This document shows positions 3-13,365 of a stretch of DNA of 13,365 bases, piece by piece. The notes under the pieces were generated by a model. It was not told where the DNA came from, did not search any database, and was given only the letters and a program-made list of their open reading frames with translations. Made by a program: the position numbers and the translations under genes. Within the stretch, counting starts at the first letter, position 1, and every line of letters starts with the position of its first letter. Origin of the DNA: Thermomucor indicae-seudaticae (taxonomy: Eukaryota; Mucoromycota; Mucoromycetes; Mucorales; Lichtheimiaceae); assembly GCA_000787465.1 (NCBI GenBank), contig JSYX01000774.1, positions 1 through 13,365 on the forward strand. Reading direction: 5' to 3'.

Positions 3-413
3 CATCCGTTCGTCCTCCCAAGGGGTGCTGTGGCACATATGGACAGTAAGCTTTCAAAGACCTTGATGAAGGCTGCTAAAGGACAAGGCAACATTTCCAT
101 CTGTAAAATCAATGAATACATGACCTCACAAGTCTGTCCGAAGTGTATATCATCAGAAGAAAACCCTGAAGCAGTGATAACCGAGAATTTGCGCAGAGAA
201 GTCCGCAGACGATGGTTTGGTGAAGAAGATAGCTTAGATGACCAGAGGAGACTCAAGGTGATTCGGATCAAACATTGCCCTCGATGCGGTACGATCTACC
301 ATAGGGACACTATGGCTGCGCATAACATGGCGATTGCAGCGAAATCCTTAATCGTCCACGGAAAAAGGCCACTCTGCTTTATCAAGCCTTCAAGGAGGCT
401 GTCCCAGGCATGA
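3..413 (+). CDS. Fanzor (eukaryotic TnpB-like nuclease), C-terminal part
   Basis: The frame is open from the left edge of the window to a TGA stop, so this is the 3' end of a longer gene. It shows a split zinc ribbon, with CPKC after the motif INEYMTSQV and CPRC about 65 residues later. The ribbon is followed directly by HRDTMAAHNMA. This arrangement is the C-terminal zinc ribbon plus RuvC-III region of TnpB/Fanzor RNA-guided nucleases, and the Asp in HRD is the expected third RuvC catalytic residue. RuvC-I, RuvC-II and the N-terminal domains lie outside the window, so activity cannot be judged. Eukaryotic context makes Fanzor the right name rather than bacterial TnpB. A second, broken Fanzor-like gene follows in the same direction from about 1493. 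Confidence 0.85.
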   Translation, partial: HPFVLPRGAVAHMDSKLSKTLMKAAKGQGNISICKINEYMTSQVCPKCISSEENPEAVITENLRREVRRRWFGEEDSLDDQRRLKVIRIKHCPRCGTIYHRDTMAAHNMAIAAKSLIVHGKRPLCFIKPSRRLSQA

Positions 414-2707: not shown

Positions 2708-3721
2708 GGTGGCAGGTCATGGAGAATTTGCCATGGAGATTTGCCCGACTATCAGTCCTGCAAGCATACATTCGCTTGCAATCACAGCTCCCGTACTCTA
2801 CGAAAATATGAATTCAGTAGTAGGCGGTCCGAGGCATGAACTTTATGATTACACGACTCAGCCTATATCCTCGACAGTCTGGGTGTTACGCGATAAGGCT
2901 GCGACTCTTGGTTCCGTTTTTGATTTTGCAAAAGCGGAATCCATCTGCGACAGTTATGGCCTGGAATTCGACGATCGGATCGTGGTACAACCAGACGGCG
3001 CAGTTTGTATACAAGGGAAGCTGAAAAAATCTGTAAGGCCAGCGGTTTCATACAGTGACTTGAGAAAGAAACGAACCGGCAGTGCAAGCGCACGTAGCGA
3101 AACAAAGACGTCGTCTCCTTCGTCTCAAGTCGAAATCGTTGACCGGGACATCAAAGAGATCGAGAAAAATCTTAAGACCGAAAACGCCAGCCTTCGCCAA
3201 CTGACCGCGAAGATCCACGGGCTCAAACAGATTCGACCTTCGTTGTCAGTTCAAGAGAAGACTATATTGACGAAAAATCTAAAAGTGTTCAAATCGAGAC
3301 GAGCGATCAAGCAGACAGGGATCACCAAAATCAAGCTACGTCTTAAGTCACTGCGAAACCAGCGACACTCGTTGTTAAAGGCAGGTCTATCAGGATTATC
3401 AAAGGCTTCGTGCTTACTTATGGTTTATGTTCTATAGCAAAGTACGACGAAGCCTGAGAATGCACAAGCTGGAAAAAGACTCAGATATGGAGCACCCAGT
3501 CTCGAAAACTCGGCATGTGAAGATGATGCAAAACACCTCGATATACAGCAGTTCGTAGAAGACGTAGACGCTAAAGAAGGACAGGTGATGTTCGGTGGCA
3601 CTGATTATGGGCTCGTAACGATGTCCACAACTGTCGCACTAGCCAAGCAACAGTGTCTTGACAAATCAGTTTATACAACAGATACAGCTGTCTTGCCGAC
3701 CAGGTAGCTGGCAATCAAATG

Positions 3722-3863
3722 GAGCAATCTGTTAATGACATGGATGTAACCGAAAGCGAGCAAGTTGCCAACGGCATGGATGTAACCCAAAGAGAGCAAG
3801 TTGCTAACGACGTGGACGCAACCGAAAGCGAGCAAGTGGTTAAAGGTACGGACATAACCCAAT
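3722..3863 (+). repeat. 36-bp coding minisatellite, about 3.8 copies
   Basis: Full units start at 3740, 3776 and 3812, with partial units on both sides. Each 36-bp unit encodes a 12-residue repeat of the form MDVTESEQVANG, with a few substitutions. It lies in the Fanzor-like pseudogene between the GGTDYGL segment and the basic segment, where a flexible acidic linker would be tolerated. The last unit runs into an in-frame TAA and then a CAA/CAG-rich stretch. Confidence 0.8.
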
Positions 3864-4197
3864 AACAACAACAGCAGCAACAAACCCAAAGTGAACAAGC
3901 CGTCGTCCAGACGGATGAAGCGTCGCGATTAAAATGTCTGCGGATTACAGCTGGTGAGATCAACCAGAAAGGGCTTGTACGAAAATATCAGAAGAAACGT
4001 GAGCGAAGAAAGGTATCTAAAAGTGATACTGTAAGTTATTGTATACAGAGTAATATTTTTAAATGGGATATCTTGTTGCAGAATTTGGACAAAGGGGTTG
4101 TGGAGGGCGAGTCGGAACTCGCAGAAAATACGTTTGATATAGTTGTTTGAAAATTCAATCACGACAAGAACGGTTTTTGACCGAAGCCCAAACTTAG

Positions 4198-4205
4198 GAA
4201 TTTCT
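4198..4205. repeat. Target-site duplication, left copy (GAATTTCT)
   Basis: These eight bases directly abut the CACCTG end of the left inverted repeat. The same eight bases abut the right end. Perfect identity suggests a fairly recent insertion. Confidence 0.93.
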
Positions 4206-4369
4206 CACCTGTGTCTACCGAAAATTAGCGGAATACAAGCCGCGTTTTTCCCAAAAAATTCATGGATTATGTTCCAAAGCCTCTGCGCCCAAATTCCCCA
4301 AATCCCTCAAATTCCTCAAGTCTGCTGACTTCGGATCGCTCCTTCAATCCGTGGCAGCGAGGAAGGCTG
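4206..4369 (+). repeat. Left terminal inverted repeat (164 bp)
   Basis: It pairs with 13000-13141 in reverse orientation. Positions 4206-4220 match 13127-13141 exactly. Positions 4243-4369 match 13000-13126 with two mismatches (4269 and 4271). Positions 4221-4242 (22 bp) exist only on this side and lie between short CCG repeats. Confidence 0.95.
4290..4316 (+). repeat. Three tandem 9-bp units in the left TIR
   Basis: The units are CAAATTCCC, CAAATCCCT and CAAATTCCT, head to tail. The same array is present in the right repeat (13053-13079, reverse orientation). Regular short repeats near transposon ends are often transposase-binding sites; that role is inferred here. Confidence 0.7.
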
Positions 4370-5356
4370 ATGCCTGTTAGGTCGTTGCGATGCATCTCCA
4401 TGCAGCACATACAGTATATGCTAAGGATTAGCTTTATCCAAGCTATCTAAAATAAAAGATAGAGAATAGTGTATAAAGCAGGTTAGTTCTGTCGACCGAG
4501 TTGAAATATTGAAGATAAAGAGCCTTAATCTCGCAATCTTTCATCTCCCATGAAGATAGTCTTGGATGAGTGTTTTATGTACCAGTCAATAAATGCGATT
4601 TGGATTGCTTGTAGCAATACTCTCCAACTTCGTGCAATTTGACTTAGAAATTCAACAGTCGCGAGAATAGCAGCTTGTTTCGACACACAACAACCAAGAA
4701 TGTCCAAGGTTACGATTCGTCTAATAGCAATACCAACAGTCAAAGCATTGCCGACTTAAACGATAGTGTCAGGCTCTTGAGTTTATGCTTCCTTTTCCTT
4801 TTCTTTTGCTCCTCAGAAAGTTACAAGCTATTATCGGCGGAGCAGTAGGACTGCAGAGCGGTTACTGGGTAGATAGACTATTGTGTTTAAGCGTACTTCA
4901 ACGACATGAATCAGGGATCTCGGGTTGGATGAAGAATGTGAGTCGAGGTTACTAGGGTAAATTGATATAGGCATGTGGGGTCCAACATGACACACTCGGC
5001 AGTAATGATCATCGTAGCACTTCATATTTAGCTTTGGATCCTGGATCCATTTGGCTATCTTTGTGGATACGCTAGAGCAATCTGCACATATTCAATTCCC
5101 ATAGAAAATTCATATAGAGCGTGCTATTAGTAGTTATAAGGGAATATCTTGCAGCGCCACGGGCTCAACAGACCGTTCTGTTATTGTCAACATCACAAAC
5201 AATGCAGGGCATTGTTTTCACGAGGTCTATAGCTATTTTGAGTAGGCAGGAACATTGAAGCGACGCTCGAAGAGGATATTATGTAATTGCAAAAACATAG
5301 AAGAAAGGGTATTCAATCTGTCGATCATTGCTTTCCTTTTTTCGCGCGCCACTAAA
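4370..5356 (+). other. Noncoding 5' region of the transposase gene
   Basis: About 990 bp between the left inverted repeat and the first ATG of the transposase. Short open frames occur on both strands (for example 4743-4525 on the - strand), but they lack recognisable motifs or continuation across splice sites. The stretch contains pyrimidine-rich runs around 4790-4812. It presumably holds the transposase promoter; I cannot point to a convincing TATA box. Confidence 0.5.
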
Positions 5357-8300
5357 ATGCCTGAGCATCAACAGCAGCAGCAACAACAACAGCAAAATCA
5401 ACTATCCTCAGTAGGAAGCTTTCCAACCATTTACGAGCATGTCCCAGCTCAAAAATCAAGCATCAGGGAACACGTGAGAAACAGCTCTAAACGACCCAAA
5501 GATAACGACGAAGAGCTGAACAATATGAAGGTCGAAAAAGTCGGGAAACGGTACCACCAAAAGTACCCAACAAGGGAAACGTGGTTCGCTTCGTCGTCCG
5601 GCTTGGAACGTCAGCAAGGCTTCGATGACTACGACGTAGACATGGGTAGCTGTTGGGATGACGAAGTGTTGCTGCCGCAACGGCCTGAGCAACCCAATCC
5701 AAACGCAACATACCAGGAGAAGAAGAAGCGCCTCGCAGAAACCTGGGACCGTTTGATTCCTGCTCTTGCCGATGCTTACGTCCGTGCTGTAGGCTATCAA
5801 GTGCCACGGGCTGACGAGCAGCAGCCTATCTCTCTCGACAACGGTCTAGCTTGTGCATGCGAAGCAGTTACGGAAAAGTCTATTAGCTGCTTTTTCATCA
5901 CAGGTAAAGCATTTTCACAGATGTCGGTTAAGATACGAATAACTCGTTTCGGTAACTTTACCACGTCGTAATCTGTACCAGGGATCAAAAAGGCCACAGT
6001 CAAACTGTGTAGCCAAAAAGCTCATCATGCGCAAAACCTGCTAAAGCAGCATTTGTTTCCGGGCAGCCCTAGTAACCCACAGGTTGGATTTCATCTTGAA
6101 CTCCTTCGCTTATATTCTTCGCTGCGTATGAAATGCCGAGTTGGATTCAAGGCATTTTGCGAGATCATGACTGATTTTCACTGGTCCAAAGTAAGCCATA
6201 GAATCCTTCACTTCATCTCCTCTATTCCTGCTTTGAAACTAACTAAATCGTAAAAGGATGTGGTTACTATGCCTCACAAAAGCTTTGGTGATGCGTTTAT
6301 GGCGTACTCTGCCATGCTGCAGCTTGTAGAACGGTCCATTATAACAAAATATGAACTGCAGAATTTTCCTTGGGACCGTTGCTGGGCTTGTCCAAAGGTA
6401 CGTGAAGGACGTGGTGACATCTTGTGTTATTAATTATGGCTACATCAATTTTATACTGTAGCCACATACGGAAAACGAGCCTACCATCACCTGCATGGAT
6501 GGCATTTTTCAATTGCGAAGGTCGAAGAATGCCATGGAGCCACTAAGAGATACAGAAGAAAGCAGAATGATAACTTCGGCAAAACACTATTTTATCGATG
6601 ATGCTACCGTAGAGCAATATGCCACAAAGCGAAACGATGTAAGATCTTTATACTGTTCTTTAAGGGCTTGTAACCAATACTTTGCAGTCTACCGAGAAGT
6701 GCGACAGTAACTTTAAAGCACTCGATTCCCGCAGAAACGCGTAGTTTTGGCGTAGCTTTGATGAGATGGGGATCTTTGGTAGTACTTGTGCCCGACATGG
6801 CATCCCATTGAAGTTTGTAAATATGAAACAAGGCGGAGAGAAGTATGCGCTTTTGTTTCCTGCTGCTCATCCATTGTCTATCCTCTTTTCTGTACTGACT
6901 TTTATTCTGACGATGTCTCCAGGTACTTTACTCCAGCCTAACAAAAAAAAAATGTCTCCAGGTACTGCTACCCTTTAGCCACAATTGGAGCTTTGCAGTC
7001 TATGATCGGCAATAACATGTACATTATGTACGATGTTGCCTGTAAATTTAAGACTTCCTTGATGGTATGTTAGGATATAGTCGGGATACGATAATGGTAT
7101 TGCATTGTTGAGGACATCTCTAACAAGATTCTTGCTCTTCTCGTTATGGCGATCAGGCTGAATTTCCCGAGATGAGTGACGCGAAACTAGCTGTGAGCGT
7201 CTTTCATGCATTCGCGCATGAAATGACCTGCCAAGTGGAGTACAATCCTCGTTTCATCGACGGCTTCGGCCTCACCGATGGCGAGTGGCTTGAGCGTCTC
7301 TGGTCATTCCCGTCTGGTTTTGTGAAGCTCACCAGACGGATGACACCAGAGCACCGTATGCTCACACTTTCGTTAGCCCTCGATCACTTCAAAAAAGAAA
7401 AGATCCTCAATATAGGTAAGATACTGTAATGCTAAAACAACACATATCTTAACAGGATGATGCTTTTCGATCGCCACCAGGAGAAGCGCTCCGTACACGC
7501 TACAAGAACGCGAAGGAACACAAAAAGGCGGCAGAAAAGGTTCTAGCGGAAAGCGGCCTTAGTGACACTGAGATGGCCCATAGATGGAATGATGTCCGGG
7601 CGCTTATGCTGCAGCAAACCCGGTCGATCATTGAATCCAGAAGACCAGCTTCTCTCGAAGCGGAGTATTACACAGAGCTTCGTTGCTACTACGGATTGAA
7701 GTAAGTTACTAGAGGTTTGTCTAACTGTTACTCATGCTAACCCAAATACTTCATCCTTCTTATAATTGTTTCGCGCGTAGGAAAACAATTGAAAATAATG
7801 GACCACGCTCAGACATTACTGTTATTACCGCTTTCCGCCAAAGTTCCGAGCGTCTCATAAATTACGAGCAGAGACTCGGTATCACGACCCGCCCAGCCGT
7901 TGACTCGGAAGATTTCTTACGCACTGTGAGAAGGATGGTAGAAGATGAGCTCAATCTAGCTCGTAAACAGTTGCGCGTCTCCGTAGGTACTCTACATGGC
8001 CTTTATCAAGAAGTTGATAGGCGTCCAGCAGGTACTAGACCTTCGAGATAGGCGCTCGTTGCAGCACCACTTGGACTACGTGAGCCTTTACTGAGTATAA
8101 TACGATACACTAGGCCATAAGCTTCGTACACAATCTCTGCCGCAGTCAATTAAGAAGGAAAGACAAGCGCTGGAAAGCTTGGTAAACCAATATAATGCTG
8201 CGCGCACGAAACTTTACTTTTTGCTTCAAGGTATGTCATGCTATCTTAGCTACGCCTAAAAGCTCTCTGCAAGAGGGACCTGCGATTAAAAGGAGACTAT

Positions 8301-8842
8301 ACGTAGTGTTGCAACTTCCTTTAACAAACTTGCCTCCCGTTGCATCCTTTAAGAGCGTCGTTGATATCGACAGCAGTTTCTGGACTAACGATTCAGCAGA
8401 AACGCATGGCTTTGACAAAATTATGCGCAACCACTTGCTGAAATAGCGTGTACATGAGGAGCTTTCTTTGCTTCATGTATGTCCTCTACCTCTGAATATG
8501 TAAAGCAAAGTGATACATACGTTTCCATAGAACGAAGCTATCGGAGTCGTTGAAGCCGCAAAGGCATCAACGACAGAACTCAAGGCGGCCTACCAAGCGG
8601 CGTGTAATAACGCTGCAGATCCTGTCAACCGTGGCCATGCAGCTCTGCTTTTGAAGCTATATGAGCGTACAGAGGCATAGTCGCGTGCTGTAGAAAAACA
8701 GGTCTCCTGCTGCATTAAAGAAGAAGATACCGCTGAAGAGGGTCTTGCTGCCGAAGCAGTGAATCTAGTCAGTGACGATGATTACGAGGACAGTGATTAT
8801 GAAGATATGGATGACAATGCGGAAGATGAAATAAGTAGTTAG
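5357..8842 (+). pseudogene. KDZ transposase, 12 exons, three in-frame TAG codons
   Basis: Proposed exons are 5357-5903, 5982-6190, 6257-6397, 6462-6638, 6688-6842, 6962-7064, 7157-7415, 7481-7700, 7781-8031, 8114-8230, 8274-8476 and 8531-8842. All join in phase with GT-AG introns, giving about 897 codons. The start ATG has A at -3 and opens a Gln-rich N terminus. In order come a Cys-containing pre-domain with FPGSPSNPQVGFH (about 218-235), CWACPK (about 294-299), the strand TCMDGIFQLRR (Asp about 312), FDEMGIFGSTCARHG (about 380-395), MYDVACKF (Asp about 434), HAFAHEMTCQVEYNPRF (about 461-477) and LTDGEWLERLWS (Glu about 487). Together these are the KDZ DDE-type core. The C terminus is acidic (DDDYEDSDYEDMDD). 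In-frame TAG codons occur at 6742, 8444 and 8678 (codons 377, 784 and 844), and no TAA or TGA interrupts. Intron 10 (8231-8273) is the least certain junction. This is probably a nonsense-inactivated copy. Confidence 0.88.
6913..6966 (+). repeat. 15-bp direct repeat flanking a 24-bp A-tailed insert, in intron 5
   Basis: ATGTCTCCAGGTACT occurs at 6913-6927 and again at 6952-6966. Between them is a 24-bp segment ending in nine A residues. The layout is that of a tiny retroposed fragment with target duplication. It duplicates the 3' splice site of intron 5: the second copy continues the KDZ frame (TAC TGC TAC), while the first would lead to an in-frame TAA within a few codons. Without the extra 39 bp the intron would be 80 nt, in line with its neighbours. 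Confidence 0.7.
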
Positions 8843-9881
8843 ATAAAAAAACTAGGGAGATATTCCATATTGAATAACAATGACTGCACCATAAAGCGAA
8901 ACTGTGATGTAACATAAAACCTTGCATGGCTGAATATGTCCACAACGTAATTGCTGGTGACTCCATCTTTTACGAAGCATGGAGGCTGTATCACGAGGAA
9001 TAAATGCTATCATATTCCTTGCTACAGTATGGAACTTGGAAATTGATGTTGCAGTAAACATAGGCTTCCTTACTCTAGTAAAAGATTAGTACGCAGCCAA
9101 CTTGTCGCCAGTTGTCTCGTATTTCAGAATAGTAAATGACAATGTCAAGAAAGGTTGGAAAACTTATAACTAACAGCAGTATGATATGTTGGCCTGATAT
9201 CTTCATGGATATTCAGAATGTACTCAGACTGGAACCATTTGTGGGGGCCTCTTGACAAAGTATTGCTTTTCTGATTTTCGTTTCAGAGCCATTATCAAAT
9301 GAACTATGAAAGCACAGTTACTTCTTGCTTTAACAACTACATATCTTAGAGTAACTCGCTTGTTTCCAGCGCTTGCTAAGCAATCACTGACTGTGCCAGG
9401 AACTACTGGCGCTATCACTAGCTATGCCAGTAGCTGCTAGCACTATCACTGAGTACTCCAGTAGCTACTAGAGCCAGACTGACTGTTCGAGAAAGTACTG
9501 ATGGTGTAGCCAATTGTAACAGTGGCTCTTTGACACCGATAAATAACATCAATAAAGAGTCCCTTATTAAATAACTGCATCATTGCTATGGAAGATATAA
9601 TGGTCATTTATCTGATTATCAGTATAACGGCTTATAACATACTTAGCACCGTTCTTTAAGACTGATCTGCTTAGGCATTAAGTTTTAGCAAGACGACTAA
9701 AGGTTTTACTCTGCTCATCTGTATTTGTGGTACGTGTGTATGATATGGTATAGAGAAGCGTTCCACGCAATCATAAAACAGACAACGAGATAAGTTTAGC
9801 AATGTACATGCCATAGACGAGGCCATATTTGTTTCCAGTAATCGTATAATTTATTAGCGCCAAGTGGTCCTCTTAATGTTC
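8843..9881. other. Noncoding spacer between convergent genes
   Basis: About 1 kb between the transposase stop and the end of the C2H2 gene, which converge on it. I see no convincing frame on either strand; small - strand frames at 8966-8769 and 9061-8852 carry no motif. A diverged tandem duplication of about 31 bp lies at roughly 9410-9475 (GCGCTATCACTAG and GCACTATCACTGA arms), with CTACTGG/CCAGTAG inverted copies nearby. AATAAA at 8999 could serve as a poly(A) signal for the transposase transcript. Confidence 0.5.
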
Positions 9882-10733
9882 TTAATCAGCTTCTTCATCT
9901 TCAACATATTCTTCTTCCATCTCATCCTCGTCGTCGTCTTCTTCTTCTCCTTCGCCCTTCCACAAGTTTTTCTTCAAGTTCTGCAGTCTGTCGAGGACTG
10001 AAGATGGCATCTCATCAGCCCTCAACTGTGGATCCTGGCGCAGGTATGGACAGCCAGTCCATCGCATGGCCCTGATCTTCGGGCAGTTATTTGACACACA
10101 GCGTGTCTTTGTCTTTTCCACCGCTCCCATGATTTCATTTAGAAGCTGTGCCTTGCGATCGTCAGGCAAGGCGGCATAGTCGCGGTAGGCATATGCAATT
10201 TCAGGGTCAAAAAAGGTGTCCTGGATTTCATCCGTGAAGACCGCTCCAGCTTCACGGGCAACCAGAGCAAGATAGCCGAACCGAACAGCGTTGCCGTACT
10301 CGTCCAAAAGCGGTTTCTCGTCCTCACCAATGGCGTCCGATAGTATATCCTCTACGTTCTTTAAGACCTGCTGCAATTCAATCTCTAGCTGAATTGGCTT
10401 CAGCTGGACAAGGTAATCGAACTCTACAATAGCAGAGCCAAGGCGCCTCTGCTCCTTTCGGCGCATTGCTTCTTTCGCAGCGTTTGCCTTGTAATACGCC
10501 CGCTTCTTCTCTAGGCACTGGCTTCTGGTCAATCGTCTTTTTGGCTCTGGGCGGCATTTGGCAGGCATGGGCACGCCATGTTTCGTGAAACGATGGCGCG
10601 CAAGCGTAAGCTCCGTCTTCAGCGTTTGGTGGCAGTCGGGACAGACTAAGCCGACAGAGTCCTCGACTTCTGCTTCGTTTGGCATCTGCTGTTCCTGTAC
10701 TCGAAGAGCTACTTCTCGCGCAGCGATCGGCAT
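9882..10733 (-). CDS. C2H2 zinc-finger cargo protein (283 aa)
   Basis: This is an uninterrupted frame from ATG at 10733 to TAA. A single C2H2 finger lies near the N terminus: C31, C34, H47 and H52, with spacing C-x2-C-x12-H-x4-H and the text VCPDCHQTLKTELTLARH. A basic stretch follows (about residues 62-98: PKRRLTRSQCLEKKR, then MRRKEQRR). A second small Cys group (RCVSNNC, then TGCPY) sits near residues 209-228. The C terminus is strongly acidic, with runs of Glu and Asp. This suggests a nuclear, nucleic-acid-binding protein, but I recognise no named family. It lies inside the KDZ transposon, reads in the same direction as the two upstream cargo regions, and converges on the transposase. A regulatory or ends-binding role is possible but unproven. 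The single long exon contrasts with the intron-rich neighbours. Confidence 0.72.
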   Translation of the reverse strand: MPIAAREVALRVQEQQMPNEAEVEDSVGLVCPDCHQTLKTELTLARHRFTKHGVPMPAKCRPEPKRRLTRSQCLEKKRAYYKANAAKEAMRRKEQRRLGSAIVEFDYLVQLKPIQLEIELQQVLKNVEDILSDAIGEDEKPLLDEYGNAVRFGYLALVAREAGAVFTDEIQDTFFDPEIAYAYRDYAALPDDRKAQLLNEIMGAVEKTKTRCVSNNCPKIRAMRWTGCPYLRQDPQLRADEMPSSVLDRLQNLKKNLWKGEGEEEDDDEDEMEEEYVEDEEAD

Positions 10734-10861
10734 GTCTGAGTACCATGTTTTGGTTGGGTCTCCAGGTGGCGCTGACCCATTACGACGAAAAGCAAGCCTG
10801 CCAGGGAAAGGAAGCGGTCAAGGACGTCGCGGAAGTTCTACTTTTGGCAAATATTTACTAC

Positions 10862-11655
10862 TCATAAATCAAAGCAAAGCAGGTCAGGGTCTTCAATGTC
10901 TGAGGAGAAAAAGACGTCGACAATAGCCAGACTGGAGTGGTTATTGCAAACTGGAGGACTTACTTCAGCTTAGACACCATTTTTGGCACTGCGATGTAAT
11001 ATCTATAGCGTTTACAGTCAAACATCAACTTGAGATCAGGAACTTTTGCAGTTGTTACCAGCTACTGTAGTCTTTTTTATTTGGGTTTACTGACAGGAAA
11101 AAGAGAAGCCTTCTAGAGCGATCTGGGGAACACTTTATAGCGGGATCTATTCGGAAGTATGCCGTGCCTGTTTATAGGAATGAAGCACGTGGTTTCTCAT
11201 AGGTGTAGGTGACAACACCTGCCCTTGAAGATTGTAGCAGTGAATTTGATCTGTGCCTCGTGCATACTGTCTGAGAAGGTAGTCAATCTGTGCCCATGCC
11301 AAATTAGAACTGTCAATAGGCTATCCCGCTTTTAGCCTTCTAAACATTAGACGCCAGGTTTATCATAGATCGTTGCCTTCAAGTCAGGTTTGCGCCAACC
11401 AAATGTAAAATATGAAGCGACTTAAAGGGTCTACCATGCGATCAGTAGCATCGTGCATACTCTTTCTGGAAAACGTACCTACGGCCTGTATGCCCGAAAG
11501 GCATCATCAAACGCAACAAAGCAACAGATAAATATCCCTCACGCGTATTGTGTTAGAGACATCAACATAACTATTTGCGTATAAGTACATACGCGTACAC
11601 TGACTAAGCGGAGGGCATATTGCGCTTTAATCTCGCTCAGCTTCTTGGTTATCAT
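10862..11655 (-). pseudogene. Multi-exon cargo gene of unknown function, partly resolved, possibly broken
   Basis: Several protein-like blocks lie in order on the - strand. They are 11655-11599 (start MITKKLSEIKAQYALRLVS), then a good phase-0 junction to 11485 onward (AVGTFSRKSMHDATDRMV). Next is a block around 11410-11353 (GWRKPDLKATIYDKPG), then 11320-11219 (LAWAQIDYLLRQYARGTDQ), 11167-11091, 11061-10964 (LKLMFDCKRYRYYIAVPK) and 10931-10862 (LAIVDVFFSSDIEDPDLL, stop TGA). The last junction has a GTAAGT donor. Several junctions would need introns of only 29-32 nt, and at least two do not keep phase. Either this is a decayed gene or it has unusual introns. I recognise no family. It sits between the 5-exon gene and the C2H2 gene, in the same direction. 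Confidence 0.42.
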
Positions 11656-11716
11656 TCCCGCCAGCGGGTTCCTGAAGATATATCATGAATCATGAATCAT
11701 CACCGAAAGAGAAATG

Positions 11717-12929
11717 TTATTCATCAAAGCTAGACTGTACCGTGTTATCTTCTACTCTCTCGAATTTCACTTCTCCCTTCTGCAAAGCGTCCATGAGCAG
11801 TCCCCGTTCCACGGATGTCAGGCTACTAACGGTGCGCACCGGCACCGACTTTGGCCAGCCTGTAAGCCTGACCTTCTTCTTAGGATTCTCCAAGACTATG
11901 TCCTTCCACGGTATCTTAGTCTTGGCCGCTTGCTCGGTGTTGTGTATCCCAACAGCACGCACTGAGCAAACGAATTGTGTCTGCATCAACTACTCTCAGA
12001 TAAAAAACAAAAGAAAAAGCTTACAGTAGAGCTCTCGCACTTCTTCTGTTAAATCATCGCGCGTCTGGTTATGATTCCTCTTCTTCGAGGAATCTCCATG
12101 GTTCCCGGTGACAGAAGCCCCGACGCTACCATCAGCAGCAACATCACTGCTACCATGGACCGTTGCGTCTGATAAAACATTATGTCAGTGCCTTCTACGC
12201 GTCTTTTCTGAACTTCCACTACCTCTAGGTAGAGGGTCTATTCTGCCCTCATCGACAAAGGTCCGGAAGGTGTGTGCGAGCTTCTTGCCTTCCGCGGTCT
12301 GCATGAAGTCATATGCACGACCTGAAAACTCGCTTTAGCATCCGCATGGGCGCTGTCTAACAGAGAAAGGTACCTTCCGTTCCCGAAACGGTCCAGACGT
12401 CAGGTTTCCCGTCTGGGCCAGGTTTGTACATCAGTGCCAAGCTATGGACACCGAAGTCCTCCTTAAGTCGCAGGAACGACTTCGACACGTAGTTCTTCGT
12501 CTTCACCACTTGTTTCATTGCGACTTTCGCGTCATCCGCAGCCACCACGAAGTTCGCATTGCTGCTGGCCGCAGCAAATTCCGTCATTCTGGCCTTGTCA
12601 TACGAAGCCTTCATGATCCTGTTTTTATCAGCAAGAATAGCGCCCTCGGGGACTATAAAGTAGACATTAAGAAACACCATTCCATGTGCTCGTTATTAGA
12701 ACTTACAGTCAGTTTTCCTATAATTCTCAGCGTAATGCAGGTTCCACGCGCTAGGCGCTCTAGGCGGGCCCATGACCTTCACTCCGTTGGTCATGTTGGC
12801 CTTGATCATCAGGTCTGCCACAGACATGCCGGCATCCTGCGCGAAAGACTCGTAGAATTCCTTTTGGTGCTGCATTTCAGCAAGCCAGCGTTGTTTGAGT
12901 CCTTCAGGGCGCTTTTCAAAATCACTCAT
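11717..12929 (-). CDS. Five-exon cargo protein of unknown function (329 aa)
   Basis: Exons on the - strand are 12929-12707, 12652-12374, 12321-12223, 12168-12025 and 11961-11717. All four introns (52-63 nt) have GT-AG ends and all are phase 1. The first begins GTAAGT. The joined frame has no internal stop and ends in TAA. Residues 55-72 read PPRAPSAWNLHYAENYRK, faintly like the start of an HMG-box, but the rest of that fold is not evident. A Lys/Ala-rich middle follows, then a polar linker with KKRNHNQTRDDLTEEV, and a C-terminal block (about 265-320) with IPWKDI, KKKVRLTGWPKSVPV and LTSVERGLLMDAL. It starts 70 bp inside the right inverted repeat and reads inward, as the transposase does from the left end. 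A DNA-binding helper of transposition is a guess. The consistent splicing suggests it is intact. Confidence 0.75.
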
Positions 12930-12999
12930 GGTGAGTATCAGAGGTTACGGGAGCAGTAATAAAAGAACGAGCTTTTGTCTATTTTCTATTTCGGCGCTA

Positions 13000-13141
13000 C
13001 AGCCTTCCTCGCTGCCACGGATTGAAGGAGCGATCCGAAGTCAGCAGACTTGAGGAATTTGAGGGATTTGGGGAATTTGGGCGCAGAGGCTTTGGAACGT
13101 GATCCATGAATTTTTTGGGAAAAACGCGGTAGACACAGGTG
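13000..13141 (-). repeat. Right terminal inverted repeat (142 bp)
   Basis: This is the reverse complement of 4206-4369 with two mismatches and lacks the 22 bp present at 4221-4242. The outer end reads CAGGTG, mirroring CACCTG on the left. It lies 70 bp upstream of the 5-exon gene's start codon and may contain its promoter. Confidence 0.95.
13053..13079 (-). repeat. Three tandem 9-bp units in the right TIR
   Basis: On the + strand the units read AGGAATTTG, AGGGATTTG and GGGAATTTG. They are an exact mirror of the left array at 4290-4316. Confidence 0.7.
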
Positions 13142-13149
13142 GAATTTCT
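13142..13149. repeat. Target-site duplication, right copy (GAATTTCT)
   Basis: These eight bases follow the right inverted repeat directly and are identical to 4198-4205. Confidence 0.93.
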
Positions 13150-13365
13150 GATTTTCAACACTTCCAATTTTACCATTACTTTTCTTTCTTTATCTTCAAA
13201 AAGGCCCATATCGTTTTATTTCTCAACTTCACTCAAAAGGTGAGTGCCTTGATATCATTTCTAACAACGTATAAAATAGAGGACTTATGAATATCTTTCA
13301 ATAAAGCCGTTCTATCTTCAGGAATTTTACAAGACTCAGTTCACGTTGCTTCATGCTACTACTCC
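13150..13365 (+). other. Host flank, possible continuation of the interrupted gene
   Basis: After removal of the transposon and one duplication, a frame starting at 4143 continues through 13150 to 13239 without a stop. A GTGAGT donor at 13240 and a TCTTCAG acceptor ending at 13321 then define a plausible 82-nt intron with a CTAAC branch-like site at 13261. The joined frame remains open to the window edge. The protein it would encode is Phe/Tyr-rich, and I cannot match it to a Fanzor segment with confidence. Confidence 0.3.

Follow-up and report, generated by a model that had tools for sequence, protein, structure and literature searches.

A KDZ-superfamily transposon with long inverted repeats, a broken transposase frame and a probable second element protein in Thermomucor indicae-seudaticae

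The window analysed here, the 13,365-nucleotide contig JSYX01000774.1 of Thermomucor indicae-seudaticae (C640:1-13365), contains a KDZ-superfamily DNA transposon at 4206-13141, which spans 8,936 bp and lies inside a perfect 8-bp duplication. The explanation that we favour as a whole, at a probability of roughly 0.88, is that of a KDZ cut-and-paste transposon with an 8-bp target site duplication (TSD) and a selected second protein, which decayed later. The DDE transposase would recognise the long terminal inverted repeats (TIRs), cut the element out and join it into the target with an 8-bp stagger, the repair of which would give rise to the duplication; cut-and-paste is the reaction expected from the transposase class, while the TSD and the domain are directly observed. 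At least one more protein, encoded by the gene at 11717-12929 and kept by selection, would have belonged to the family itself, and the present copy would have decayed afterwards through three nonsense codons in the transposase. An earlier note on this DNA had described the element as complete, which holds for its ends but not for the transposase reading frame, where three premature TAG codons are found.

Element ends and insertion site

The ends of the element are defined by the following features.
4198-4205, no strand, left TSD GAATTTCT, from a sequence check
13142-13149, no strand, right TSD GAATTTCT, from a sequence check
4206-4369, plus strand, left TIR of 164 bp with the tip CACCTGTGTCTACCG, from inverted-repeat comparison
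13000-13141, minus strand, right TIR of 142 bp, without 22 bp near the tip, from inverted-repeat comparison

On the plus strand of the window GAATTTCT occurs only twice, both times at the element edges, and chance would put such a perfect 8-bp match precisely at the two ends in about one of 65,000 cases (4^-8, by our own arithmetic). The window likewise contains the tip CACCTGTGTCTACCG once only, at 4206, and a single copy of its complement, at 13127. When aligned, the two arms match at 140 positions and differ at 2, with a single gap of 22 bp close to the tip, and an ungapped 130-nt stretch of them is 98% complementary; the E-value of 2.1e-57 for the arm match in a search of the genome (24.77 Mb in 735 contigs, with copy numbers from all such DNA searches being lower bounds) excludes a chance pairing. 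The exact ends, the near-identical repeats of 164 and 142 bp and the perfect 8-bp duplication described in the earlier note are thus all borne out. The right TIR has probably lost the 22 bp, as a relic of the family on contig C273 retains sequence resembling the stretch that is absent from it.

The note had also proposed to look for an orthologous empty site in a related strain. In the genome itself, the two flanks were joined (722 bp) and used as a query, with four matches, two of them the flanks themselves. The third, C507:17502-17745, spans the flank junction with an overall identity of 85%, which rises to 93% for 4135-4193 and 92% for 13157-13343, and since it crosses the junction the two flanks are joined there with no element between them. 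The fourth, on C591, is confined to the left flank (147 bp at 96%, positions 3895-4041). The element thus inserted into a sequence of which the genome holds another version. The joined flanks are thus present in the insertion-site paralogue on C507 (L074:1-371, C507:17440-17810), but about 20 bp centred on the target are missing from it, and the gap may be either an excision scar or an unrelated deletion.

These data also bear on whether the two repeats or the flanks were wrongly joined in the assembly. In favour of such an error, the draft is split into 735 contigs, of which the window makes up a short one in full, and sequence from either flank turns up on other contigs. However, the mismatches and the 22-bp gap between the TIR arms, the exact TSD, the uninterrupted flanks at C507 and a set of genes between the arms that is the content of a KDZ element render an assembly artefact exceedingly improbable.

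The transposase and its stop codons

The transposase gene was modelled from splice consensus and homology, and the premature stops were read from the exon model.
5357-8842, plus strand, KDZ transposase gene, 12-exon model with KDZ and CxC1 domains
5357-5903, 5982-6190, 6257-6397, 6462-6638, 6688-6842 and 6962-7064, plus strand, predicted exons 1-6
7157-7415, 7481-7700, 7781-7982, 8146-8230, 8307-8476 and 8531-8842, plus strand, predicted exons 7-12
6742-6744, plus strand, premature in-frame TAG, after the first catalytic Asp and before the second
8444-8446, plus strand, premature in-frame TAG
8678-8680, plus strand, premature in-frame TAG

The presence of a KDZ transposase, as previously claimed, is confirmed by Pfam, where residues 1-671 of the predicted protein, with X at the first stop, match PF18758 (KDZ) with an E-value of 4.9e-54 over profile positions 4-215 of 217, while CxC1 (PF18802, E 5.5e-10) and CxC2 (E 4.5e-07) are matched at residues 162-249, before the KDZ domain. 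The protein thus combines a KDZ domain containing the D, D and E motifs with a CxC cluster ahead of it, as is characteristic of the superfamily. When residues 290-671 were searched against 3490 candidate database proteins, 17 were found at an E-value of 0.001, of which 13 are from fishes, two from Rhizophagus irregularis, one from a lancelet and one, the best match, from Syncephalastrum racemosum. The latter, a KDZ/CxC protein (P0001), is 42% identical over 70% of the query and shares with it the spelling CARHG, where the other rows have C-RHG; the R. irregularis proteins P0002 and P0003 are 34% and 37% identical, respectively, and all three carry CxC1/CxC2 and KDZ domains, the comparison being one of proteins only. 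The fish proteins (P0004-P0013 and P0015-P0017; 31-39% identity) share the KDZ core and, as far as the matches reach, its motifs, and although the databases name them "uncharacterized", "hypothetical" or "unnamed", we presume from host and domain that they are probably Zisupton.

The three D, D and E residues, which we take to be the catalytic ones, are well conserved. The first Asp is present in all 16 database rows with letters at this position (one of the 17 being gapped). The second Asp and the LTDGE motif occur in every one of the 17 rows, and the C640 transposase keeps the three motifs. The Asn beside the first catalytic Asp, found in 16 of 16 rows with letters there, is replaced by Ile in this copy. 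In one predicted intron of the transposase gene, at 6885-6961, the sequence ATGTCTCCAGGTACT, which holds the acceptor, occurs twice around a short A-rich insert.

The copy would still be autonomous if the three TAG codons were sequencing errors, were spliced out or were read through, and consistent with this, the model has no further break in its frame or splice sites, the catalytic motifs are retained and no more than 2 mismatches and one gap separate the two TIR arms. However, the stops are three and separate, the first lies within the stretch matched by the KDZ profile (one TAG in 6682-6846), the otherwise invariant Asn next to the first Asp is altered, and nothing in the genome indicates TAG as a sense codon, which leaves an autonomous copy very unlikely. 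The splice model thus speaks against a complete working copy, and the element appears instead to be whole in structure with a broken transposase frame; it is probably immobile now, because three nonsense codons interrupt the transposase and no other full copy was found in the genome.

As all three premature stops are TAG, the usage of this codon in the host was examined. By eye, the three positions would suit glutamine, and both UAA and UAG are recoded to glutamine in the aphelid Amoeboaphelidium protococcarum, according to the available part of PMC11687900. In the T. indicae-seudaticae genome, all 20 ABC-domain rows (19 of 86 candidates scored) are without an internal stop, at least two ABC frames (L064 and L067) terminate in TAG at C-termini that are plausible by eye, and in the Hsp70 frames L027 and L030 TAA directly follows HDEL and EEVD; a role of TAG as a sense codon was rejected on these grounds. 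A stop is present in 8 of 28 Hsp70 rows, with TAG in five of those, which weighs against an entirely clean picture; in the C350 row, TAG is the first codon of the match, at an exon edge. It looks like the standard code holds in the genome and TAG is a real stop. The genome also encodes an elongation factor 3, a protein that marks fungi, and an exact 18S pattern had no match in it. Decay resembling repeat-induced point mutation was also considered. Six host loci have TpA/ApT ratios of 0.48-0.73 and one further stretch has 0.79, compared with 0.84 for the left flank and 0.89 for the element itself; the signal is weak and no claim is made from it.

Accessory genes and related sequences in the genome

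Two predicted genes lie on the strand opposite to the transposase, in agreement with the earlier note.
11717-12929, minus strand, accessory gene 2, five-exon splice model of 329 amino acids with no internal stop, recurring at C273
12929-12707, 12652-12374, 12321-12223, 12168-12025 and 11961-11717, minus strand, predicted exons of accessory gene 2
9882-10817, minus strand, accessory gene 1, open frame of 311 codons with a putative start and zinc-finger-like matches

With the left TIR (4206-4369) as a query, three matches are found in the genome, the two arms and C273:33566-33647 at 88%. One other place with the repeat therefore exists, as had been looked for, but its tip is unrecognisable and it confirms neither the outer ends nor the TSD length. 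The whole element as a query gave ten matches, including C640 itself and the C273 TIR, and among them C273:33753-34759 corresponds to accessory gene 2 at 72%, transposase matches of about 100 bp lie on C589 and C503, and C722 and C85 have matches of 55-57 bp at 84%. Matches to the KDZ domain amount to 14 rows on nine contigs. The longer stretches of seven of the eight other KDZ contigs (C290 being left out) were compared, and the pieces on them are 26-64% identical to the C640 protein where aligned, several containing stops, some of which may be introns. A search for inverted repeats of at least 30 nt around the KDZ matches gave four pairs in three of the seven loci, none of which brackets the KDZ match; several of the matches are near contig ends, and unbracketed matches are not proof of elements without ends. 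Near one KDZ match, at L038:7771-8221 (C283), nested imperfect inverted repeats with 41-nt arms (83% and 73%) possibly represent a small mobile element.

Accessory gene 2 adjoins the TIR in both C640 and C273, with order, orientation and exon layout all preserved. In the alignment, exon 2 of the C273 copy has lost 1 nt and an acceptor site is altered. Over 253 codons, with the C273 frame break, splice edges, unalignable stretches and the C-terminus excluded, the comparison of the two copies gives a dN of 0.173, a dS of 1.198 and a rough dN/dS of 0.144 (bootstrap 95% interval 0.088-0.216; 0.079 to 0.403 per block), and the gene thus evolved under purifying selection. The recurrence beside the TIR at C273 together with this selection makes it probable that gene 2 encodes a second element protein rather than cargo, and the latter word, used in the earlier note, is probably wrong for this gene. 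The product would most likely help transposition, perhaps as a protein that binds the transposase or the element ends. Outside the genome, no homologue was found at an E-value of 0.1 among 594 candidates with an early splice model that did not include the last exon, at an E-value of 1 among the 8000 candidates to which scoring with a three-row alignment was capped, in Pfam at E-values of up to 10, or in the PDB sequences. A likeness to the HMG-type companion proteins of basidiomycete KDZ elements would be conceivable, but nothing here supports it. Tentatively, and with somewhat less than even confidence, it may be proposed that the 11717-12929 gene product, from a family without recognised relatives, is a second transposition protein that a KDZ lineage of early-diverging fungi itself encodes and that selection has kept, and that it would act with the transposase at the long TIRs.

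Accessory gene 1 has zinc-finger-like matches below the Pfam cut-offs and one broken relative, on C624, at 41% and with two internal TGA codons. No KDZ match is listed on C624, nor on C588, C275, C50 and C254, where weaker relatives of gene 2 are found, and such a distribution would also fit a host gene family, from which the extra genes could have been captured as passengers without a role for the element; the contigs are short, which leaves linkage poorly tested, with C588:6200-8000 being the sole stretch of these looked at. Against a passenger origin, two copies of gene 2, at 72% identity, both adjoin the TIR with their orientation preserved, and the gene was under purifying selection; a single host gene would have no need to be copied twice together with the ends. 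Capture of host genes is accordingly considered unlikely, though far from negligible, and the evidence against it bears on gene 2 only, there being none such for gene 1.

Several points weigh against the favoured explanation of a KDZ transposon with a selected second protein. The relatives of gene 2 on contigs with no listed KDZ match have just been described; the dS of this gene is near saturation, which makes the ratio rough, yet it is far below 1; the 12-exon transposase model is a prediction from splice consensus and homology; the sole other TIR-bearing locus found is the C273 relic with no recognisable tip; and there is no single GAATTTCT at C507, the target itself being missing there.

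Neighbouring sequences and known KDZ systems

The sequence to the left of the element contains several further features. At 3-413 (plus strand), the contig start truncates a TnpB/Fanzor-like protein to its C-terminal end (PF07282, E 5.9e-09; NCBIfam guided_TnpB, E 7.1e-06, below the cut-off), and within the left-flank frames at 3438-4150 (plus strand) is a stretch resembling a TnpB/Fanzor RuvC motif by eye only, with no match in NCBIfam. A 267-bp element (2441-2707, within 2433-2715) with the tips TAGGGCTCC and GGAGCCCTA and an 8-bp duplication GGTGGCAG interrupts an apparent single reading frame (1477-2490 and 2709-3437), and a 66-bp element (803-868, within 795-876) with the tips TAGGGTTCC and GGGACCCTA is flanked by two copies of CTTAAAAG; by these criteria, both would be hAT-like. 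Inverted repeats of 29 nt at 622-650 and 1464-1492 are 97% complementary with TA at both outer ends, and 622-1492 presumably represents a non-autonomous element of the Tc1/mariner type. An imperfect 36-nt tandem repeat is present at 3693-3836, in the left-flank frames.

The earlier note held that KDZ elements are usually known by the transposase alone, which is out of date, and a KDZ element with defined ends is not new in kind, given the Cryptococcus KDZ1-3 elements (PMC12810828) and the Dileera and Kyakuja families (PMC12730594) described in the available parts of these papers. According to the former, the Cryptococcus neoformans KDZ1-3 elements are about 9.2-11 kb long, with TIRs of 139-241 bp, KDZ and CxC1 domains and TSDs of 8 bp or 4-8 bp, and were recovered when they newly inserted into a reporter gene. 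The C640 element has nearly the size and the TIR length of KDZ2 (about 9.2 kb, 139-bp TIRs), and long TIRs and an 8-bp TSD are common to KDZ1 and the C640 element, here in a single copy with both ends. While the Cryptococcus elements were caught inserting, the C640 copy is broken, and the comparison is one of descriptions rather than of TIR or accessory-gene sequences. As far as the available part of PMC12730594 describes them, the Dileera element Zisupton-1_PGr has 8-bp TSDs, whereas two Kyakuja families have 7-bp TSDs and no TIRs; the C640 element shares the CA..TG termini with Kyakuja and differs from these two families in its long TIRs and 8-bp TSD. The Dileera and Kyakuja families of that paper also carry a TET/JBP dioxygenase, none of which was found in the C640 proteins scanned, namely in the Pfam matches of the transposase (E up to 1) and of the two accessory proteins (E up to 10), with small open frames partly scanned. 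The C640 element is thus a new family of an already published KDZ kind.

As Cryptococcus KDZ elements of the same layout have already been seen moving, according to the available part of PMC12810828, little is added here on the mechanism. Exact ends, TSD length and gene content are now given for a KDZ family with its best transposase match in Mucorales, and no paper was found in the open-licence PMC literature on KDZ, Mucoromycota and transposable elements; Syncephalastrum racemosum, the source of that match, is taken by us to be a Mucorales fungus. The mild novelty lies in the selected companion gene, which suggests that a KDZ companion gene belongs to the element and is under selection, instead of being chance cargo.

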